Positions 1 to 38,852 of a stretch of 38,852 bases of DNA are shown piece by piece (within the stretch, counting starts at the first letter, position 1; each line of letters begins with the position of its first letter). Below the pieces are notes generated by a model. That model saw nothing but the letters and a program-made list of their open reading frames with translations. It was not told the DNA's origin and made no database searches. Source of the stretch: a virus; the IMG/VR virus record IMGVR_UViG_3300037847_000388, positions 1 through 38,852 of that record; one strand, 5' to 3'. The position numbers and the translations under genes were made by a program.

Positions 1-82
1 CGCCAGTGTCCTGACCGTTGTACACATCGTGCTTGGTGACGTTTGAGAAGTTCACCACACCTTCGATAACTTGACTTGCCAT
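1..82 (-). CDS. ssb: Single-stranded DNA-binding protein, N-terminal fragment (gp2.5-like)
   Basis: The window edge cuts this gene. Only the first 27 codons are present, beginning MASQVIEGVVNFSNVTKHDV, and they match the intact SSB at 37875-38249 except for Ala instead of Ser at residue 2. The start ATG is preceded by GAGGATT at Shine-Dalgarno distance. It is a second, partial copy of the gene that opens the replication arm, so it says more about contig ends or genome circularity than about a second functional SSB. Confidence 0.85.
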   Translation of the reverse strand, partial: MASQVIEGVVNFSNVTKHDVYNGQDTG

Positions 83-100
83 TGAGATAATCCTCGTTGT

Positions 101-124
101 TAAAAAAGAGTTCCCGCAGGAACA
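101..124 (-). terminator. Hairpin plus T-tract in SSB leader (terminator or attenuator), left copy
   Basis: Read on the minus strand, GTTCC-TGCG-GGAAC forms a perfect 5-bp stem, followed by TCTTTTTT. It lies between the stop of the 53-aa gene and the SSB start, just downstream of a sigma70-like promoter. The right copy (38272-38298) has a different loop and a T-A to C-G compensatory pair but the same architecture. This supports a selected structure that ends upstream transcripts or attenuates SSB expression. Confidence 0.6.
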
Positions 125-125
125 C

Positions 126-287
126 CTATAGTATCTCACGTTCTGGGCCTCGTGTCAAACCCTTTTTACGTGATTGGTACTTTTTGGCATCTTTCTTCCT
201 GTCCTTGTGTGCGCCTCCTTTGTTGTGATCGTGCTTGGCTACAGGATTCCACCGTCCTCCTGTAGTAACTCCTGTAGTATTACTCAT
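126..287 (-). CDS. Small basic protein of unknown function (53 aa), left copy
   Basis: Fifty-three codons starting ATG with AAAGGA nine bases upstream. The product is rich in Lys, Arg, His and Gly, with a central NPVAKHDHNKGG and KDRKKDAKK stretch that resembles tiny basic proteins common in marine podoviruses. I do not know their function. The right copy at 38301-38462 encodes the same protein with mostly silent changes over the first 44 codons, which is good evidence of translation and purifying selection. The last codons overlap a promoter for SSB. A nucleic-acid-binding role would fit the charge but is only a guess. Confidence 0.75.
   Translation of the reverse strand: MSNTTGVTTGGRWNPVAKHDHNKGGAHKDRKKDAKKYQSRKKGLTRGPEREIL
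130..158 (-). promoter_or_regulatory. Sigma70-like promoter for SSB/replication arm, left copy
   Basis: The minus strand shows TTGACA, a 17-base spacer, then GATACT. The -35 is perfect and the -10 matches 4 of 6. It sits inside the 3' end of the 53-aa gene and faces SSB. In the right copy the same hexamers and spacing are kept although the overlapping amino acids changed, which supports function at the DNA level. Confidence 0.6.
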
Positions 288-312
288 TAGTTTATTCCTT
301 TAGTTTATATCT

Positions 313-543
313 TTAGTAGTCCTTAATACTACTTAAGATGTTATCATAGTTTTCCTGTAATTGCAACACCTCATCTTGTGAAATATTACCGTCAATAGGT
401 ATTGACTCCATGTTCTCTAGCTCCCAATGGGTAGCGATAGAGACTGTCAGACATTCTGTACACATATCGTAGTGCACACCGTTTGCATCTTTCTTCAGTA
501 TCTCCAAATCATCTAGGATAACGTCACACGCCTTACACCTCAT
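313..543 (-). CDS. Zinc-ribbon protein of unknown function (76 aa), left copy
   Basis: A 76-residue protein with CxxC pairs at Cys3/Cys6 and Cys28/Cys31, spaced as in a small zinc ribbon, followed by an acidic helical tail. GGGAGG lies upstream of the ATG. The right copy at 38487-38717 has all four cysteines and differs at only about six residues, mostly conservative. Zinc binding is inferred from the cysteines. Similar ribbons in phage early regions may bind nucleic acid or host transcription proteins, but nothing here shows which. Confidence 0.8.
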   Translation of the reverse strand: MRCKACDVILDDLEILKKDANGVHYDMCTECLTVSIATHWELENMESIPIDGNISQDEVLQLQENYDNILSSIKDY

Positions 544-673
544 CGTAACCTCCCTGCCCGTATTTCTCTGGGTCCTTTCTGGTAACCAAAATGATGGCGT
601 TGACTACGCAGAGAAACAGACCTACCGCCCACAGCCCACACCACAACAAAAACAGACCAAGCAAAAAACTCAT
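533..673 (-). CDS. Tiny membrane protein (46 aa), present only in left copy
   Basis: Forty-six codons. The first 30 residues are almost wholly hydrophobic (FLLGLFLLWCGLWAVGLFL region) and form one transmembrane helix, followed by a short charged tail. The start overlaps the stop of the upstream gene as ATGA, and its own end overlaps the zinc-ribbon start by 11 bases, so it looks translationally coupled. GAAGGA lies ahead of the ATG. In the right-hand copy this ORF is missing and the two flanking genes abut directly. Function unknown. Confidence 0.55.
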   Translation of the reverse strand: MSFLLGLFLLWCGLWAVGLFLCVVNAIILVTRKDPEKYGQGGYDEV

Positions 674-5636: not shown

Positions 5637-5866
5637 TGATTACAATAGTTGGTGCTGATTGGTGTCCTGCGTGTCGTAGGGCTAAGAAAACAGCCAAAGA
5701 GCACAACATGGAGTACAAATACGTACACATACCTCCGGGTCAAGAAGGATGGGATATGGTAGAGGCCCTGACAGGCAAGCGATCAATCCCCCAGATATTT
5801 TACCACTTTGGTGGTTCTAAAGAGTTTAAAGAAGCCCTCAACAGCGTAGGAGAACTTACACAATGA
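5636..5866 (+). CDS. Glutaredoxin-like protein (CPAC)
   Basis: A 76-residue thioredoxin-fold protein with WCPAC at residues 9-13 (catalytic Cys10 and Cys13) and a cis-proline in RSIPQIF. It reduces disulfides with a dithiol active site, and a natural client is the ribonucleotide reductase at 30198-32063, whose C-terminal CxxxxC pair must be re-reduced each cycle. I start at the ATG at 5636 (TGATG overlap) instead of the GTG three bases earlier. Its place among virion genes, far from the reductase, is unusual. Confidence 0.85.
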   Translation: MITIVGADWCPACRRAKKTAKEHNMEYKYVHIPPGQEGWDMVEALTGKRSIPQIFYHFGGSKEFKEALNSVGELTQ

Positions 5867-6288
5867 AATCAGTAAACGAAATGGTTATCGGTTTTGGTCT
5901 TGCGGTTTTTTTCTCACTGGTAGCTATGTCAGCGTACGGAGAGACTGTTATTAATTACGATGACGGATCTACGTATACTTTGAGCGGTAAAGAAGAAATT
6001 TACGTATCTTCACAGCCTCTGTGGGAGCACCGCACCCTAAACAACGGTAATCTCGTACAGATTACAAAACAGAAGCCGTGGGCAAAGCGCGATTACGTTC
6101 CGACCCCTGTAGACGCTATGCAACCGGGATCACACGAGTGGTGCCAAGCGTACGTCCCGTGGGCAGAAGGTTTGACGTTTGATATGATTACGTGGCAACG
6201 TGCTTGCGACACTAACAACGATGGCAAGTATGGCTGTGGTGACACTCAGTTTGACGACTCAGACGATTCTGGGGTTTGTACGGAATAA
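5863..6288 (+). CDS. Secreted protein of unknown function (141 aa)
   Basis: The N-terminus has a hydrophobic segment (MVIGFGLAVFFSLVAMSAYG) with a likely signal-peptidase site near AYG-ET, so export to the periplasm is expected. The mature part has WCQAYVPWAEG and DTNNDGKYGCGD, the latter resembling a calcium-binding DxNxDG loop, plus four cysteines. Its start overlaps the glutaredoxin stop as ATGA. It could act in lysis or in changing the host envelope. I do not recognise a family function. Confidence 0.6.
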   Translation: MKSVNEMVIGFGLAVFFSLVAMSAYGETVINYDDGSTYTLSGKEEIYVSSQPLWEHRTLNNGNLVQITKQKPWAKRDYVPTPVDAMQPGSHEWCQAYVPWAEGLTFDMITWQRACDTNNDGKYGCGDTQFDDSDDSGVCTE

Positions 6289-18914: not shown

Positions 18915-19292
18915 ATGTTACAAGCACTTATAGGACCAATCGCAGGACTCGCTAAGACTTGGCTGAGTAATCGCCACGAGCAGTCACAAGCGAAACACGT
19001 GGCTAAGATGCAAGTCATACAAAACACTGCATCTTGGGAACAACACATGGCGCAGGCTAGTGCTAACTCGTGGAAAGACGAGTGGTTCACAGTAGTCTTG
19101 AGTGCGCCTGTGCTAGCAATTATGTGGGGCGTAGGGATGAATGACCTTGATATTATAGAGCGCGTAGGAATGGCGTTTGAGGAGCTAAGTAGACTTCCAG
19201 ATTGGTACTCCTATCTTCTTTATGTAGCCGTGACAGCTAGTTTTGGCATACGTGGTGCTGACAAGCTCATGCAAATGAAGGGTGGTAAGTGA
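18915..19292 (+). CDS. Second holin-like protein, GTA_holin_3TM type (125 aa)
   Basis: A 125-residue protein with a hydrophobic N-terminus (ALIGPIAGLAKTWL), a charged middle with SWKDEWFTVVLSAPVLAIMW, and a last membrane helix ending in ASFGIRGADKL. The 'W-KDE-W...P' and 'G-RG-DK' signature fits the 3-TM holin family first described from gene transfer agents. It is the second holin candidate within 1.5 kb, and the pair could be holin and antiholin. Its stop overlaps the next start as TGATG. Confidence 0.7.
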   Translation: MLQALIGPIAGLAKTWLSNRHEQSQAKHVAKMQVIQNTASWEQHMAQASANSWKDEWFTVVLSAPVLAIMWGVGMNDLDIIERVGMAFEELSRLPDWYSYLLYVAVTASFGIRGADKLMQMKGGK

Positions 19293-22200
19293 TGCCTACT
19301 CAAGAATTAGATAAGACAGTTCTACATAATCTAATTACCCGTGGAGATATTAACATTGCGGGTGTAGACACTGTTGAATACGAAGGTCGAGATATACCGT
19401 TAGAGATTATTTATGGTGCTTTGCCTGAAGGGGCTAATTATTGGGTAGCCGAAGATTTAAACGGTGATGGGCTTCTGGAAGTTTTTGCCGCTAGTACAAG
19501 CGAAAGCGGCGAAGAGACTATTTATAACGTTTACGACATTAACCCTAAAGGGAATGTGGTAAGCACAGACTATCAAGATTACCAAGCAAATATACAGGCG
19601 GCGGCGTCTGGATACGGCGTTGAAATTACGTGCTTAGTTGATGGTTGTTCAATTTCCATAATACCTGATTATGGTTTTTGGATGACTATTAGAGATGCTT
19701 TTAAGTCAATAACAACTTTTCCTGAGTCGAGCGACGAACAAGAGTTGGCTGAAGCACAGATGTTTCAGTTTTTTACTCGCAAGTTGGAAGAGGCTTCTAA
19801 CGGCGATATTGATAAAGCAACCTTTTTAAGTGACCTTGAAAACAGCGGATATCCTTTTAATGACGCCTTTATGCGGCGTTTTGAGAAACAGTTTGAAAAC
19901 GCGCAGTACAATGGCTTTTTAAACCGCATTGGCGCACTTTTTGAGGAAGGTGACGGACAAGCAATACAAGATTTCTTTGACAAGTACGAGAACTCAGGTA
20001 TTGCTGACAACTCGTTTGTAATAGAAAACTCGTTTAGCCTGATGAACCCACAGAACGTCCTAGACAGGATGATTCTTGGCGATGGTGATTGGGGCGTCAC
20101 AATTCAAATGTGTACGTCTACAGTCACAACTAACTGTGTTGACCCAAAAGCCATTAACGATATATGGGAAGATTTTGGTAGACACATACAGGTAATTTTT
20201 AAAGGGCTTGAGATTCCGGGCTTACCTGAGTGGTTGCCTTTGCCGGGAATTATGCGTCTTCCAACTATCGGGGAAATATGGGACAAAGTTACTGGTCCTT
20301 TTACTGACGCCGCTAGAGAACAGCTAAAAGACTGTATGTCCAAAGACGATGACGGTGACGGAGTAAACAACACCGCGTCTTACTGCATGGAAAACAGAGA
20401 CATCATAGGCATTATCACTAAAGGCCTAGAGGATGGCGCTACTGAAATAATTGATGCTACAACAGAAGCAGTAGGAGGAATAGTAGACAAAGCCCTAGAG
20501 GGTATTGACTGTGTTTTAAACCCAGTAGACTGCGCCAGTAAGATTAAAGATGTTCTTGAAGGCGTCCTTGGAGGCGCTGATCCAACTCAGCCGGGGCTTC
20601 CACCTTGGATGCGAGCTATCATCATCGGCTCTCAGTACGGAGATGAAGTACTCAAAGAGTTGGAAAAGATATTTGATTCAGACATCGATGGTGACGGTGT
20701 AATTGGAATTACAACCGAACAGGTAACGTGTTGGGATGGATCTGTAGTAGACAAAGAAGAGGACTGTCCTGAGGATACCAGAGTTGATTGTTGGGACGGG
20801 TCTAAAGCTGATTCTTTAGAGCAGTGTCCCGTAGATACTAGAGATGGAGCCACTGTAGAAGAGTGTAATCAACTTGGTAGAGTACACGTTCCAGATGCTT
20901 CTAACCAAACAAAAGGATCGTGTGGGGGCTGTAAAGACGATATAAACACTGTTCCAGAAAACGAAAACGATCCTATGAGTCCTTGTGTGGCTCCAGAAAA
21001 CCCTGACCCCAACGAAGGAGATCCGTGTAATACAGGCGCTCCTCTGAACGCAGAAGGTACTATAGGTCCCGCACCTGATTACGAGTGCGAGCCAAATGAA
21101 AATGCTACCTGTACTGACCCAGAAACAGGCAAAGAAGGGGTCATAAAAAACGGGCAGTGCGTTGTTGAGACAGTTACTCCAGAAATTGATTGTACTCAAC
21201 CTAGGCCTTCAGGACCTGTTACTTTTGACTTAATTGACGCTCAAGACCGATGGGATGCAAAATGTAAAGACACTCATTGCCCTAGTGGGGTTCCGATAGA
21301 TGCACACGTAGATAGCGACTGTAGTAAACCACTAAAAGAAGTTGGAACAAATCCGGGGGACGCTTGCGATTTAGCAGAAGCTGGTTATTCAAGCGGTGGC
21401 GTTGGTGTTATTGACGCAAACGGAGACTGCAAAAGAGTTGGACAGGCGTGTAACAGACAGTCTTACGGTTTCGGTCCCTCAGACAACTGCTCCACAGGAC
21501 TAGGGTTCAACACAGCGCAGGGTGTTATCGACTCTAACGGAGACTGTGTTTGTAACGAAGCCTGTGATGATCCAAACAGAGAAGTAAGCCGAACAACAGG
21601 AGCTTGTTTAGACACCTGTAAATTTGGTTGGAAAAAAGACGCAGAAGGTAACTGCACAGTAGAAGACACTGGCGTTGATGAATGTACAGACCCTAACAGA
21701 AACACTAACGATGATGGGTCTTGTGCCGATACCTGTACTGACGGTAGTCCTGCTCCAGCATCAGGCCTTTGTCCAGCACCAGTAGAGGAGTGTGTAACAC
21801 CTGATGGAACGGCTACAGGGGCTATAGCTCCAGACTGCACAGAGTGTCCGACAGGACAAGATTTTGATACGAATGGCATCTGTGTAGACATTGATATTAC
21901 AGAAAATTGTGAAAACGGAGCTACAAATTATCCTGACTGTGACCAGTGTCCTAAAGGTCAAATATTAAACACACAGGGTATTTGTGTTACTACTGTTGAT
22001 GCTACTTGTGATGAACAAAACAGAGTCACAAACGATAACGGAACCTGTGGCGAATGTAAGGCAGGGTTCACGTTTGACACAGACCAAGACTTGTGTATAG
22101 CAGACGGAGGAGAAGATGTGTGCGCTAACGGGGCTACAGACTTCCCTGCTTGTACTACGTGTCCTGAGGGTCAATCTATGGACGAAGAAGGTATCTGTTC

Positions 22201-22390
22201 CGGTGTGACTCCTCCTCCCGAAACAGGCGGTGGTGGTCCCAGTGGCGGTAGCCTTGGTGGAGGCGGTGGCGGCATGATGACCGGAATCTCTGGTTACATG
22301 GGTGATCCTCAGTTGCTGTCTCGCACAGAGTTCCCAATTACAGACTATTTGGCAGGCCTGTTTGAAAACATTAGAGGCAATCAAGCATGA
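19292..22390 (+). CDS. Giant cysteine-rich putative spike protein (1032 aa)
   Basis: The first 450 residues are acidic and mixed, with calcium-type DLNGDG and DDDGDG motifs. From about residue 480 the protein becomes extremely Cys-rich: I count 46 cysteines between 20729 and 22202. They lie in CWDGS/DCP units followed by EGF-like units of the form C-NGAT-(Y/F)P-C-x2-C-P-x-G-Q-...-GIC. A Gly-rich linker and the motif SRTEFPITDYLAGLF close it. No signal peptide. It lies between holin and tail tube genes, so a virion surface stalk or adhesin is inferred. Disulfide versus metal binding is open. Confidence 0.7.
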   Translation: MPTQELDKTVLHNLITRGDINIAGVDTVEYEGRDIPLEIIYGALPEGANYWVAEDLNGDGLLEVFAASTSESGEETIYNVYDINPKGNVVSTDYQDYQANIQAAASGYGVEITCLVDGCSISIIPDYGFWMTIRDAFKSITTFPESSDEQELAEAQMFQFFTRKLEEASNGDIDKATFLSDLENSGYPFNDAFMRRFEKQFENAQYNGFLNRIGALFEEGDGQAIQDFFDKYENSGIADNSFVIENSFSLMNPQNVLDRMILGDGDWGVTIQMCTSTVTTNCVDPKAINDIWEDFGRHIQVIFKGLEIPGLPEWLPLPGIMRLPTIGEIWDKVTGPFTDAAREQLKDCMSKDDDGDGVNNTASYCMENRDIIGIITKGLEDGATEIIDATTEAVGGIVDKALEGIDCVLNPVDCASKIKDVLEGVLGGADPTQPGLPPWMRAIIIGSQYGDEVLKELEKIFDSDIDGDGVIGITTEQVTCWDGSVVDKEEDCPEDTRVDCWDGSKADSLEQCPVDTRDGATVEECNQLGRVHVPDASNQTKGSCGGCKDDINTVPENENDPMSPCVAPENPDPNEGDPCNTGAPLNAEGTIGPAPDYECEPNENATCTDPETGKEGVIKNGQCVVETVTPEIDCTQPRPSGPVTFDLIDAQDRWDAKCKDTHCPSGVPIDAHVDSDCSKPLKEVGTNPGDACDLAEAGYSSGGVGVIDANGDCKRVGQACNRQSYGFGPSDNCSTGLGFNTAQGVIDSNGDCVCNEACDDPNREVSRTTGACLDTCKFGWKKDAEGNCTVEDTGVDECTDPNRNTNDDGSCADTCTDGSPAPASGLCPAPVEECVTPDGTATGAIAPDCTECPTGQDFDTNGICVDIDITENCENGATNYPDCDQCPKGQILNTQGICVTTVDATCDEQNRVTNDNGTCGECKAGFTFDTDQDLCIADGGEDVCANGATDFPACTTCPEGQSMDEEGICSGVTPPPETGGGGPSGGSLGGGGGGMMTGISGYMGDPQLLSRTEFPITDYLAGLFENIRGNQA

Positions 22391-23046
22391 CATATTTAAA
22401 TTTAGTAAACGGCGTGTTGAGACGCTTGCGGGAGGACGAAGTATCAACAGTCCAAGACAACGCCTATAGTAAGCTGGTAGGCGACTTGGTAAACGATGCC
22501 AAAGAAATGGTTGAGTCAGCTTGGGATTGGTCAGCACTTAGGACTAACTCTGGCACTCTCTTAACAATCTCAACTGTCGCTGACGATTTTACGTACTCAC
22601 TGGTAGGAAGCGGGGACAAAGGTAAAATCCTCAGTTTGATTAACGACACTTCAAACATACAGATGGAGTACCGTCCTGCTACTTGGTTTGATAATAAATT
22701 CTTAATTCAAACACCAGTATTAGGAACACCTGAGTACTTTACGTACAACGGCGTAGATACTAACGGGGATGCTCAAATAGACGTTTACCCGAAGCCGGAT
22801 GGTGCGTACTCTCTGAAAGCAAGGATCGTCATAAGAAAAACTGCTTTGAGTGCTGATGGGGATGTTCTCGCTATACCTAGCCAACCTGTGTTGCACCTTG
22901 CTCTGGCTCTTGCGGCTAGAGAGCGGGGAGAAACAGGGGGACAATCAGCGCCTGAGTACTTTGCACTAGCCGACAAGTATCTGTCTGATGCTATTGCTTT
23001 AGATGCTCAGAAACACCCAGAAGACGTAATATGGTATACTCCGTAG
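22387..23046 (+). CDS. Tail tubular protein A (gp11-like)
   Basis: A 219-residue T7 gp11-type adaptor. YLNLVNGVLRRLREDEV at the start, a VNDAKEMVESAWDWSALR helix and a C-terminal LHLALALAARERGE helix are typical. It forms the ring linking portal and nozzle. The start overlaps the previous stop as ATGA. The tail tube B gene follows after 10 bases. Confidence 0.88.
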   Translation: MTYLNLVNGVLRRLREDEVSTVQDNAYSKLVGDLVNDAKEMVESAWDWSALRTNSGTLLTISTVADDFTYSLVGSGDKGKILSLINDTSNIQMEYRPATWFDNKFLIQTPVLGTPEYFTYNGVDTNGDAQIDVYPKPDGAYSLKARIVIRKTALSADGDVLAIPSQPVLHLALALAARERGETGGQSAPEYFALADKYLSDAIALDAQKHPEDVIWYTP

Positions 23047-23056
23047 GAGATAACTA

Positions 23057-24580
23057 ATGGCACAGCCTCTACAAAGCATTAATCTAATTGCTCCGGGTTT
23101 TAAGGGCGTAAACACGGAAGATTCTCCTATTGCCCAAGATCAGTCTTTTGCTGATGTTGCAGACAACGCTGTAATCGACAAGAGGGGACGTATCGCCGCA
23201 CGTAAGGGAATTGCTCTGATAACCTCTTCAGGCGCTTCAGAGCTAGGCACTGACTACATCCACAGGATTCACCAGTTCTTTGATGATGGAGGTAACGAAG
23301 AAGTATTCAGCGCAACCAACAACAAGATTTTAAAAGGCACTACGACACTCACTGATGCGACCCCAGCAGGCTACACGCCTACAGGAAACAACTGGAAAAT
23401 TGTAAACTTCAACGGCAAGGCTTATTTTTTCCAGAATAACCACGAGCCTCTTGTGTACGACAATGCAAACGGACTACGTACATTCGGTACAGCCACAGGA
23501 ACAACCACTCCGTCTTATTTGTACGGCAGTGAGGCTATATCTGCTTACGGAAGGCTGTGGACTGTTGGTGGCTCAGACACACAAACAATCTACTGGTCGG
23601 ATCTTCTGATTGGTACAGATTTTACTGGAGGCTCTAGCGGTTCCATAAACGTATCTAAAGTATGGCCTGACGGTGCAGATGAGGTAGTTGCTCTAGCGGC
23701 CCACAACAACTTCTTGTTAGTTTTTGGTAAGCACAGTATTTTAGCCTACGCAAACGCCTTTAGTCCTGCAACTATGGTTTTAGCAGACACAGTGGCTGGT
23801 GTGGGGTGTATCGACAGAAACTCCGTACAACACATAGGCACAGACGTTTTGTTTTTATCAGCATCAGGCCTCAGAAGTTTTGGTAGGGCTATACAAGAAA
23901 AGTCTCTTCCAATATCTGACTTAAGTGCTAACATTAAAACAGAGCTAATAGAAGCCATACAACTTTTGACTGAGCCTGCTCAATCAGTATACAGTGCTGA
24001 AAACTCGTTTTATCTTTTGTCGTTCCCAGAGAACAACACAACGTATTGTTTTGATCTCAAGGGAACTTTAGAAAACGGAGCCTACAGGGTAACAAAGTGG
24101 GTATCTGCTCCTTTCAAATCTTTTGCTGTACAGCGGGACGGTACGTTGTTGGTCGGCACAGGCAGTGGAATAGGTCAATACACCGGATACAGTGACTTGA
24201 CCAATAGCTACCGCTTTAGGTACTACAGCCCCGGACTGACTTTTGGTGATCCATCAAAAATAAAAATTCTGAAAAAACTTAGACCTACTGTAGTAGGTGG
24301 AGATAGCGCCAGTGTTTTTGTAAAGTGGGGGTACGACTTTAGTACCTCGTACAACACAAAAGAGTTTGGCGTAGGTAATCAAGTGCCTTACTACTACAAT
24401 ACGTCAGAAACAGAATTTAATATAGCTGAGTTTACTGGAGGCGTTATAACAACTAGGCCTCCAATTAACGCCTCAGGCAACGGATCAGTAATTACTGTAG
24501 GACTTGAGGCAGATATCAACGGTTTTCCGTTCTCTGTGCAAGAGATAAACGTATTGGCACTTATAGGTAGAATAGTATGA
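23057..24580 (+). CDS. Tail tubular protein B / nozzle-like (507 aa)
   Basis: A 507-residue beta-rich protein. The N-terminal INLIAPGFKGVNTEDSPIAQ and DNAVIDKRGRIAARKG motifs are typical of podovirus nozzle proteins, followed by a propeller-like series of short beta repeats (WSDLLIGTDF, LLVFGKHSILAY). At 507 aa it is shorter than T7 gp12 (about 790). It closes the tail and contacts fibres. TAGGAGA precedes the ATG. Confidence 0.8.
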   Translation: MAQPLQSINLIAPGFKGVNTEDSPIAQDQSFADVADNAVIDKRGRIAARKGIALITSSGASELGTDYIHRIHQFFDDGGNEEVFSATNNKILKGTTTLTDATPAGYTPTGNNWKIVNFNGKAYFFQNNHEPLVYDNANGLRTFGTATGTTTPSYLYGSEAISAYGRLWTVGGSDTQTIYWSDLLIGTDFTGGSSGSINVSKVWPDGADEVVALAAHNNFLLVFGKHSILAYANAFSPATMVLADTVAGVGCIDRNSVQHIGTDVLFLSASGLRSFGRAIQEKSLPISDLSANIKTELIEAIQLLTEPAQSVYSAENSFYLLSFPENNTTYCFDLKGTLENGAYRVTKWVSAPFKSFAVQRDGTLLVGTGSGIGQYTGYSDLTNSYRFRYYSPGLTFGDPSKIKILKKLRPTVVGGDSASVFVKWGYDFSTSYNTKEFGVGNQVPYYYNTSETEFNIAEFTGGVITTRPPINASGNGSVITVGLEADINGFPFSVQEINVLALIGRIV

Positions 24581-24611: not shown

Positions 24612-25367
24612 ATGAGTTTAATTGATGACTTACTTGGCTGGCTGACTCCTGATAAAATTACATCTTTTTACGATCAGGATCTGCCGGATATTACAGCACC
24701 AGACGTATCCTTTAAACCATTTACGGTTACAGGAGGCTTTGGCTCAATAACGGGAGGACCTGATGGTACTACCTATGATTTATCACCAGAGCAACAGGCG
24801 ATGGCTGACAAGTTATTTAGCGGTGCTACAGACTTTTTCACGGCGGCACAGCAAGACCCAGCGGAACGTGAGCAGGCTGTGTATAATCGTATGTTGGCGG
24901 CAATGGCTCCTGACGAACAACGTCAAAGGCTGGATATGGAAGAGCGTATGCTTGCCCAAGGTCGAGGCGGCGTAACTACTGCAAGATACGGGGGAACGCC
25001 TGAACAACTTGCAATGGAAAAGGCCATTCAAGAAAGCAGAAACCAAGCGATGCTGGGCGCAATGCAACAGGCGCAAGCAGAGCAGATGCAACAGGCGTCC
25101 CTTGGAAGTCAGTTCCTACAGCAGAGCTACGCACCACAAGCGGCAATGCTGTCAGCCTTTAGTCCTGCACTGAACGTTGCGAGCATGGCTGACGTAGCGC
25201 GTAGACAGCAAGGTGAGCTTGATCTAGAGGCGGCAATGTCTAGAGCTAATCTGCTTCTTGGTCAGCAACAAGGACAAGCAGGGCTGTACGCTGGTTTGTA
25301 CGGTAACATATTAAGCGGTCTTGGCGGCTTACTCAGCGCTGAAGACCCTTGGTGGAAATTCTGGTAG
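24612..25367 (+). CDS. Internal virion (ejection) protein 1 (251 aa)
   Basis: A 251-residue, Gln/Ala/Met-rich helical protein. It has an early DLLGWLTPDKITSFY segment and ends in GLGGLLSAEDPWWKFW, a hydrophobic aromatic tail. GGAGG precedes the ATG. The position after tail tube B matches the T7 internal core proteins gp14-gp16, which leave the head first and form a channel through the envelope. Sequence alone does not prove homology. Confidence 0.6.
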   Translation: MSLIDDLLGWLTPDKITSFYDQDLPDITAPDVSFKPFTVTGGFGSITGGPDGTTYDLSPEQQAMADKLFSGATDFFTAAQQDPAEREQAVYNRMLAAMAPDEQRQRLDMEERMLAQGRGGVTTARYGGTPEQLAMEKAIQESRNQAMLGAMQQAQAEQMQQASLGSQFLQQSYAPQAAMLSAFSPALNVASMADVARRQQGELDLEAAMSRANLLLGQQQGQAGLYAGLYGNILSGLGGLLSAEDPWWKFW

Positions 25368-37875: not shown

Positions 37876-38249
37876 CAGAAGTCAGCCACCTCCGGTGACA
37901 CCTCTGCTTCCTCTAGCACCTTCACAGCCTCCAGATACGTAGGAGTACCGTGGACGGGGTGTGCTGGACCCGTCTTGTACTTCAGACGCACACGGGAGTT
38001 ATACGGAACCTCACCCATGTACGGATTGCCTTCAGCATCGTACAGACCAATGGTGTACTTGGACTTAAACTTGCGCTGTTTGTTGCCCTCGTAGTCCTTG
38101 ATCTTGACACCCTGTGCCGCCAGTGTTGCCGCATCGTCCTCCGACATTGTGATTGTCATAGAGAACGCGCCAGTGTCCTGACCGTTGTACACATCGTGCT
38201 TGGTGACGTTTGAGAAGTTCACCACACCTTCGATAACTTGACTTGACAT
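37875..38249 (-). CDS. ssb: Single-stranded DNA-binding protein (gp2.5-like)
   Basis: A 124-residue OB-fold protein typical of marine podovirus gp2.5 analogues (VIEGVVNFSNVTKHDVYNG start, RKFKSKYTIGLYD core, GPAHPVHGTPTYLEAVKVLE). It ends in an acidic tail with a terminal phenylalanine (PEVADF), the feature by which T7 gp2.5 contacts polymerase and helicase. It is about half the length of T7 gp2.5. First gene of the replication arm, behind its own promoter and hairpin. Confidence 0.85.
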   Translation of the reverse strand: MSSQVIEGVVNFSNVTKHDVYNGQDTGAFSMTITMSEDDAATLAAQGVKIKDYEGNKQRKFKSKYTIGLYDAEGNPYMGEVPYNSRVRLKYKTGPAHPVHGTPTYLEAVKVLEEAEVSPEVADF

Positions 38250-38271
38250 ATTGGAATAATCTCCGTTGTTG

Positions 38272-38298
38272 AAAAAAGTCCCCCATTACCCAGAGGAC
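38272..38298 (-). terminator. Hairpin plus T-tract in SSB leader, right copy
   Basis: On the minus strand GTCCTC pairs with GGGGAC (six pairs, one G.T) around an eight- or nine-base loop, followed by TTTTTT. It is positionally equal to the hairpin at 101-124 although loop and part of the stem differ, which argues for a conserved terminator or attenuator. Confidence 0.6.
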
Positions 38299-38300
38299 AC

Positions 38301-38462
38301 CTATAGTATCTCACGTTCCTGAGTCTTTGTCAAACCCTTTTTACGTGATTGGTACTTTTTGGCATCTTTCTTTCTGTCCTTGTGTGCGCCTCCTTTGTTG
38401 TGATCGTGTTTGGCTACAGGATTCCACCGTCCTCCTGTAGTAACTCCTGTAGTATTATTCAT
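38301..38462 (-). CDS. Small basic protein of unknown function (53 aa), right copy
   Basis: The same 53-codon gene as at 126-287. The first 44 codons differ by one residue (Ser2 to Asn) and two silent changes. Only residues 46-48 differ otherwise (RGP to KTQ), exactly where the promoter spacer lies. AAAGGA precedes the ATG. Confidence 0.75.
   Translation of the reverse strand: MNNTTGVTTGGRWNPVAKHDHNKGGAHKDRKKDAKKYQSRKKGLTKTQEREIL
38305..38333 (-). promoter_or_regulatory. Sigma70-like promoter for SSB/replication arm, right copy
   Basis: TTGACA, 17 bases, GATACT on the minus strand, as in the left copy but with a largely different spacer. It drives SSB and the replication genes downstream to the reductase. 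Confidence 0.65.
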
Positions 38463-38486
38463 TGGTTTAATCCTTTAGTTAATTCT

Positions 38487-38717
38487 TTAGTAGTCCTTAA
38501 TACTACTTAAGATGTTATCATAGTTCTCCTGTAATTGCAACACTTCATCCTGTGATAAATTACCATCATCAGGTATTGACTCCATGTTCTCTAGCTCCCA
38601 ATGGGTAGTAATAGAGACTGTCAGACAATCTGTACACAGGTCATAGTGTACCCCGTTAGCGTCCTTTTTCAGTACCTCTAGATCGTCCAAGATCACATCA
38701 CACGCCTTACACCTCAT
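38487..38717 (-). CDS. Zinc-ribbon protein of unknown function (76 aa), right copy
   Basis: This copy keeps Cys3, Cys6, Cys28 and Cys31 and differs from the left copy (313-543) at about six residues, such as Ile15 to Val and Met27 to Leu. CGGAGGA precedes the ATG. Here the gene start overlaps the stop of the upstream gene as ATGA, with no membrane ORF between. Confidence 0.8.
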   Translation of the reverse strand: MRCKACDVILDDLEVLKKDANGVHYDLCTDCLTVSITTHWELENMESIPDDGNLSQDEVLQLQENYDNILSSIKDY

Positions 38718-38852
38718 CCGTTGTCCTCCGGTCCAAAGATTTGTCCAAACGCTCTACAGAGTTCTTTGTAGTCCATAGCGCTGTACTTCTCACGTATCGA
38801 CGTACGTGCAATGGCGACCACGGTTGCAAAGTCAATGAACCCTAGCTCGTAT
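38714..38852 (-). CDS. Hypothetical early protein, C-terminal fragment
   Basis: The last 45 codons of a gene cut by the window edge, YELGFIDFATVVAIARTSIR to FGPEDNG. It shares YE, DF, TV, IR, YxAM and EL positions with the gene at 670-873 but is otherwise diverged, so the two ends carry different alleles of one locus. Confidence 0.6.
   Translation of the reverse strand, partial: YELGFIDFATVVAIARTSIREKYSAMDYKELCRAFGQIFGPEDNG

Follow-up and report, generated by a model that had tools for sequence, protein, structure and literature searches.

Directly upstream of the tail adaptor gene of the virus analysed here lies an open reading frame for a long, cysteine-crowded protein. The question raised by this locus is what such a protein does for a phage that is built in a reducing cytoplasm, whether its cysteines pair with one another or hold metal, and how, if it belongs to the particle, it is attached.

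The window and its phage group

The window (the whole stretch of DNA analysed, a virus record of 38,852 bases) encodes a terminase, portal, S74 tail fibre, adaptor, nozzle, helical proteins, RNR and DNA polymerase, and its capsid protein is a distant relative of cyanophage and marine podovirus capsids. The adaptor gene had no match among 50,697 phage records; adaptor relatives are encoded on at least 566 IMG/VR contigs. The virus belongs to a marine podovirus-like group that is common and uncultured. About 550 bp at either end of the window (1–544 and 38168–38718) match each other at 89 % identity. This overlap looks diverged, as if the contig had wrapped, across two strains, round a genome that is circular or redundant; despite its classification as linear, the genome is probably near complete. 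Elsewhere, positions 5863–6288 encode a 141-aa protein with a signal-peptide-like N-terminus, four cysteines and a Cys/Asp-rich C-terminus, possibly a secreted cysteine protein of the phage. No thioredoxin was found in the window, and a search for Evr1_Alr gave no match, but neither were its controls matched.

Table 1. Coordinates of the slot gene, the parts of its product and the neighbouring genes in the window
Feature	Position	Strand	Basis
Upstream neighbour, phrog_2524 (E 4e-31), holin-like by inspection	18915..19292	+	No co-variation with tail type
Slot gene, modular Cys-rich protein, 1032 aa, 54 Cys	19292..22390	+	ORF and translation; in-frame relatives
N-terminal module 1, residues 1–110, mixed alpha/beta, DLNGDG loop	19292..19621	+	AF2 and relatives
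N-terminal module 2, residues 101–470, mostly helical	19592..20701	+	Helices in model; relatives
Cys-rich spacer, residues 480–969, 46 Cys	20729..22198	+	Cys positions; even-count rule; model
Gly-rich hinge, residues 979–994	22226..22273	+	Glycine-rich in almost every relative
Conserved C-terminal tail, type I, residues 995–1032, ..GDPQLLSRTEFPITDYLAGLF..	22274..22387	+	Profile of 128 tails
Tail adaptor, SU10_adaptor PF24175 (E 3e-11)	22387..23046	+	ATGA overlap with slot gene
Nozzle-like tail protein	23057..24580	+	PHROG matches including head closure Hc3 and virion structural protein; position after adaptor
'g14', beta type, long helical, proposed docking partner of the tail	24612..25367	+	Co-switching; S74 and phrog_6121 in homologues

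The slot gene and its product

The gene directly before the adaptor, here termed the slot, was taken from about 160 IMG/VR loci, many of them on contigs that are fragments. The slot gene of the window is real: its ATG start codon lies 1–2 bases from the upstream stop, its end and the adaptor start share the sequence ATGA (the same −3 overlap occurs in 126 of about 160 loci), and its reading frame is kept in relatives. The original prediction, a 1032-aa protein with 46 cysteines in about 490 residues, was confirmed to the residue, as exactly 46 of the 54 cysteines fall within the 490 aa of the spacer. At the rate seen in the other ORFs of the window (84/9207, 0.91 %), the chance of at least 46 cysteines in 490 aa is 3e-31. 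The remaining eight form four close pairs in the N-terminal half, within module 2 (114/119, 274/282, 348/365 and 407/414).

The predicted repeats, CWDGS...DCP and NGAT..CxxCPxGQ..GIC, are likewise present. The spacer is made up of two-Cys loops (CWDGS..DCP) and four-Cys units of the form C-x9-14-C-x2-C-x11-12-C, modelled as short beta hairpins. Their description as EGF-like holds as a resemblance only; neither EGF nor other Cys-domain or zinc-domain Pfam models matched the window slot protein, which had no Pfam match at E ≤ 0.01 (weak FG-GAP at 0.4). Searches with the whole slot protein against Pfam, PHROGs, PDB and the 50,697 phage records returned nothing usable, and a fold search against PDB and BFVD gave no significant match. 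The predicted model of the protein is of low confidence (pLDDT 59.7, pTM 0.31). AF2 blocks within residues 11–100 of module 1 mostly reach pLDDT 68–91, and the tail alone is predicted to be disordered (pLDDT mostly 23–31).

Exchangeable modules and spacers

The slot holds a different combination of modules every time, at a position fixed before the tail adaptor gene. Exchangeable N-terminal modules are followed by a variable middle, a Gly hinge and, at the C-terminus, a conserved tail some 45 aa long. The N-terminal modules are common to otherwise unlike slot proteins. Module 1 of the window is also found, at about 50 % identity, on the Cys-free proteins of L059 and L131; module 2 recurs in L083, L113, L001, L002, L080, L082 and L087, with either tail type; and the head of the Cys-rich protein of L003 is carried by the Cys-free proteins of L036 (51 %) and L046 (42 %).

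A rough rule-based sorting of the middles of 101 non-identical complete slot proteins (151–1278 aa) gave 36 that are Cys-rich, 8 with charged EKD repeats, 7 with poly-Asp, 5 with TTG/GT, 3 that are collagen-like and 42 that are other or Gly-rich. The Cys-rich stretch is thus replaceable by Cys-free repeats, which fits a spacer rather than a catalytic or metal site. In Pfam, DUF4214 was matched by 7 of 63 slot proteins, collagen (PF01391) by two and Hint by one. The collagen-bearing variants match tail-fibre PHROGs; the window slot protein showed no match to tail-fibre PHROGs and no fold match to known fibres. At one locus (L073:177-3734) the slot protein has TTG tripeptides running over about 100 residues.

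The conserved C-terminal tail

The Gly-rich hinge suggested originally is found ahead of the tail, and the end pointed out as conserved, TEFPITDYLAGLF, recurs in relatives as [EQ]FPIT[DN][YF]LAG[IL]F. Tails fall into two types. Type I reads GDPQLL....FPITDYLAG[IL]F; type II, the residual class, in which some tails are divergent, reads F.P[FY]..G[IL]SY.P(Q)...P..DY(L/M)A.L..II...(L/M)F. The tail profile, built from 128 tails, matches 159 slot ORFs; away from the slot it matches only upstream tandem slot genes, at about a dozen loci. The search for the motif in other virion proteins proposed in the original prediction covered all other ORFs of the loci: the motif marks slot proteins, single or tandem, and not other virion proteins. 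Searched against the 50,697 phage records, the consensus tails either matched nothing or reached E 2, the level of chance. HMO-2011, CRP-901, HTVC104P, HTVC025P, Pf-WMP3, A-4L and CHP58 were considered as possible cultured relatives, and the tail motif is in none of them.

Tandem slot genes occur at L042, L064, L071, L088, L091, L092, L096, L104, L119, L121, L124, L148 and L171. The downstream copy is mostly short (150–360 aa), and both copies end in the conserved tail. Retention of the tail in tandem copies shows that it is selected, and not simply hitchhiking beside the adaptor.

Cysteines change in pairs

The cysteine count is even in 100 of the 101 slot proteins and takes at least 23 different even values between 0 and 80, a pattern first noticed in a table and tested afterwards, with the first-ATG start rule fixed earlier. 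The sole odd protein (L105:4827-6971) carries an inserted Hint (intein-like) domain; its one cysteine stands at the start of that domain and is likely the catalytic residue. A second apparent exception, L089 (5091–5537), was left out because a frame change in the contig breaks its slot gene. Raw parity of abundant control proteins is an unfair test, since counts are shared among related copies (above 10 Cys, 10 of 12 are even); differences between pairs avoid that. In disjoint related slot pairs with different counts the difference was even in 23 of 23 (about 1e-7 for fair coins), compared with 13 of 143 in other proteins of the same phages given the same treatment, which change by one. An even-count excess is an accepted mark of disulfide bonding (the Mallick method, applied in PMC3177088), and bonds are also inferred where cysteine pairs change in tandem (PMC4498770).

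The original prediction had left disulfides and metal as alternatives, and the balance now favours disulfides. Clusters that bind zinc or a similar metal would suit the very high cysteine density and the CxxC pairs, and metal ligands could likewise be gained two at a time. However, the count is 2 mod 4 in 23 of the 36 Cys-rich slot proteins, which argues against four-Cys metal clusters throughout; only three histidines occur in the 490-aa region of the window; a Pfam zinc-finger match is absent for the window slot protein; and, as described above, Cys-free repeats can take the place of the stretch. We therefore regard metal binding as very improbable; the paired gain and loss of cysteines together with the 2 mod 4 counts point to disulfides.

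Tail type is coupled to g14

Nearest neighbours share the tail type in 58 of 66 cases when defined by g14, the gene following the nozzle, versus 39 of 66 when defined by adaptor and nozzle. Sorted by a simple sequence rule for g14, 18 loci combine tail I with type b, 51 combine tail II with type a and one combines tail II with type b (Fisher 8e-16); this rule was written after viewing the sequences, and the unsupervised nearest-neighbour result preceded it. The single exception, which has the type II tail and a b-type g14, is L073, the locus of the long TTG run. Mapped on the adaptor-plus-nozzle tree, tail type and g14 type show 12 changes apiece and their joint state shows 13; tail and g14 thus switch together about 11–12 times, whereas chance would give about one coincidence (P about 1e-11 for at least 10). 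Likewise, among disjoint pairs with close adaptor and nozzle (78–99.7 % identity), g14 differs in 13 of 14 when the tails differ and in 1 of 28 when they are equal.

Docking on the adaptor or nozzle, considered first for their adjacency, is disfavoured: both genes sit between the slot gene and g14, yet neither tracks tail type. Lineage linkage was rejected as the cause of the coupling because the flanking control genes do not track the tail either. Its type changes at nearly shuffled numbers on the tree of the upstream holin-like gene (14 vs 16.9 changes) and on those of the two genes after g14 (5 vs 6.4 and 5 vs 5.7). The simplest reading of the coupling is selection for a matched pair of tail and g14, and g14 probably encodes, or shares, the docking partner of the tail. 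Co-variation of this kind indicates dependence, not contact; both products could bind a third protein.

By family, g14 is a virion-type protein: it belongs either to the outside of the tail or to the ejection proteins. The model of the window g14 (pLDDT 73.6) has long helices and an FxPFTV beta element near the N-terminus; no PDB match was found for g14 by sequence or fold. An S74 chaperone domain forms the C-terminal end of 7 of 38 g14 homologues (L017, L037, L053, L054, L060, L120 and L151), and these S74-bearing homologues match phrog_6121, a virion structural protein; the window g14 is without the domain. Cysteine is absent from 70 of 71 g14 copies.

A proposed docked virion appendage and its alternatives

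On balance, and with a little better than an even chance of being right, we consider the slot protein to be an elongated, modular virion appendage, in which an exchangeable, disulfide-hardened stalk would be docked by its C-terminus to a virion protein of the tail region. The slot gene lies in the tail module, overlaps the adaptor gene and specifies a tail whose type goes with that of g14. The stalk and anchor suggested originally are well supported, given that the spacer is exchangeable, that conservation of the tail extends to tandem copies and that the tail co-varies with one gene. In such an appendage the N-terminal modules would form the distal, variable part. The Cys-rich stretch would be a stalk of small disulfide-closed loops, for which charged, collagen-like and Gly/Thr-rich spacers could substitute functionally. 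Beyond the Gly hinge, the C-terminal peptide of about 45 residues would dock the protein on the particle, in the tail region. The docking site would most likely be the g14 product, or a complex formed with it, and the two tail types would fit the two g14 types as matched pairs. Because a crude hydropathy scan found no Sec-like N-terminus in the 101 slot proteins (best 12-mer KD 1.7), the disulfides would be expected to form after lysis, in oxic seawater, or late in assembly. From the variability and architecture of the protein we infer a role in adsorption or adhesion, with the N-terminal part exposed.

The main rival, which we judge unlikely, is ejection of the slot protein together with the DNA. 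The protein would be packed inside the particle, docked to an ejection-type g14, and would then pass into the host envelope; there the spacer would span the periplasm, the disulfides would form or matter, and the hydrophobic Gly-zipper heads of some variants would enter the membrane. T7-like phages keep their ejection proteins after the nozzle, where g14 is located, and the long helices of the g14 model suit such a protein. Some g14 homologues match phrog_4287, 'DNA ejection protein', but the match overlaps their S74 part, and S74 is typical of external fibres. Similarly, hydrophobic 19-mers (KD >1.6) are present in 18 of the 101 slot proteins, but the window protein has none (best 1.19). Long acidic, collagen-like and (TTG)n spacers, in proteins of up to 1278 aa in total, would also be odd cargo for the capsid lumen.

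Two further explanations place the protein outside the virion or on its head. It is rather improbable that the slot encodes an accessory protein, for example an adhesin, exclusion factor or matrix protein, which lysis would release or leave in place and whose gene came to lie between lysis-type and tail genes by chance. The adjoining holin-like gene and the high variability of the slot, typical of accessory genes, would agree with this, as would L025, where an M15-type peptidase-like protein occupies the slot instead. However, the ATGA coupling to the adaptor holds in most loci, it is the structural-type gene g14, rather than the holin-like gene, with which the tail switches, and the slot proteins are without signal peptides. 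A capsid decoration, a Hoc-like whisker anchored in the head by its C-terminus, seems highly doubtful to us. Its polarity would be that of T4 Hoc and tandem slot copies would accord with it, but the coupled gene, g14, follows the nozzle in the tail/ejection block.

These marine podoviruses might, in a broader and more tentative reading that we hold to be possible but not probable, have a plug-in stalk system. One slot would accept many unrelated heads and spacers, two docking peptides would match two forms of a second virion protein, and the strict pairing of cysteines would reflect maturation in oxic seawater and not in the cell; it would amount to a natural C-terminally docked display. Matched docking tails and g14 genes, kept together by recombination in common marine phages, would explain quick swaps of surface parts. 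The locus also makes directly testable how a phage employs dozens of disulfides when its assembly takes place in a reducing cytoplasm, and the parity of cysteine differences between related pairs provides a sequence-only flag for disulfide proteins in uncultured viruses.

Comparison with known systems

T4 Hoc has a C-terminal anchor and protruding N-terminal domains, and the same C-terminal anchoring with protruding N-terminal modules is proposed for the slot protein. It differs in that the slot anchor is not a folded domain but a short, peptide-like tail and is linked to a gene after the nozzle, not to the capsid. The T7/P22-type ejection proteins resemble g14 in position after the nozzle and in helical character, whereas both the slot protein and g14 are without a sequence or fold match in PDB. 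Phage tail fibres with collagen repeats and S74 domains have counterparts in the PF01391 repeats of some slot proteins and the S74 domains of g14 homologues; however, the polarity of the slot protein is reversed, with a conserved C-terminus and a variable N-terminus, and the slot protein itself is without S74.

Cysteine richness was originally regarded as unusual for a dsDNA phage, which stands, although there is a precedent: Agrobacterium phage Milano, a tailed dsDNA phage, has Cys-rich structural proteins (2.1–2.4 %) that are disulfide-bonded, which adds stability (PMC10811340, PMC10491603). The likeness would be that of a tailed dsDNA phage with disulfide-rich structural proteins. In contrast to Milano, relatives of the slot protein can be Cys-free, the partner g14 is without cysteines, and no sequence relation to the slot protein was found among phage records. 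The reported Milano bonds largely cross-link many conserved core proteins, whereas here the cysteines are gathered in one variable stalk (5.2 % in the window slot protein).
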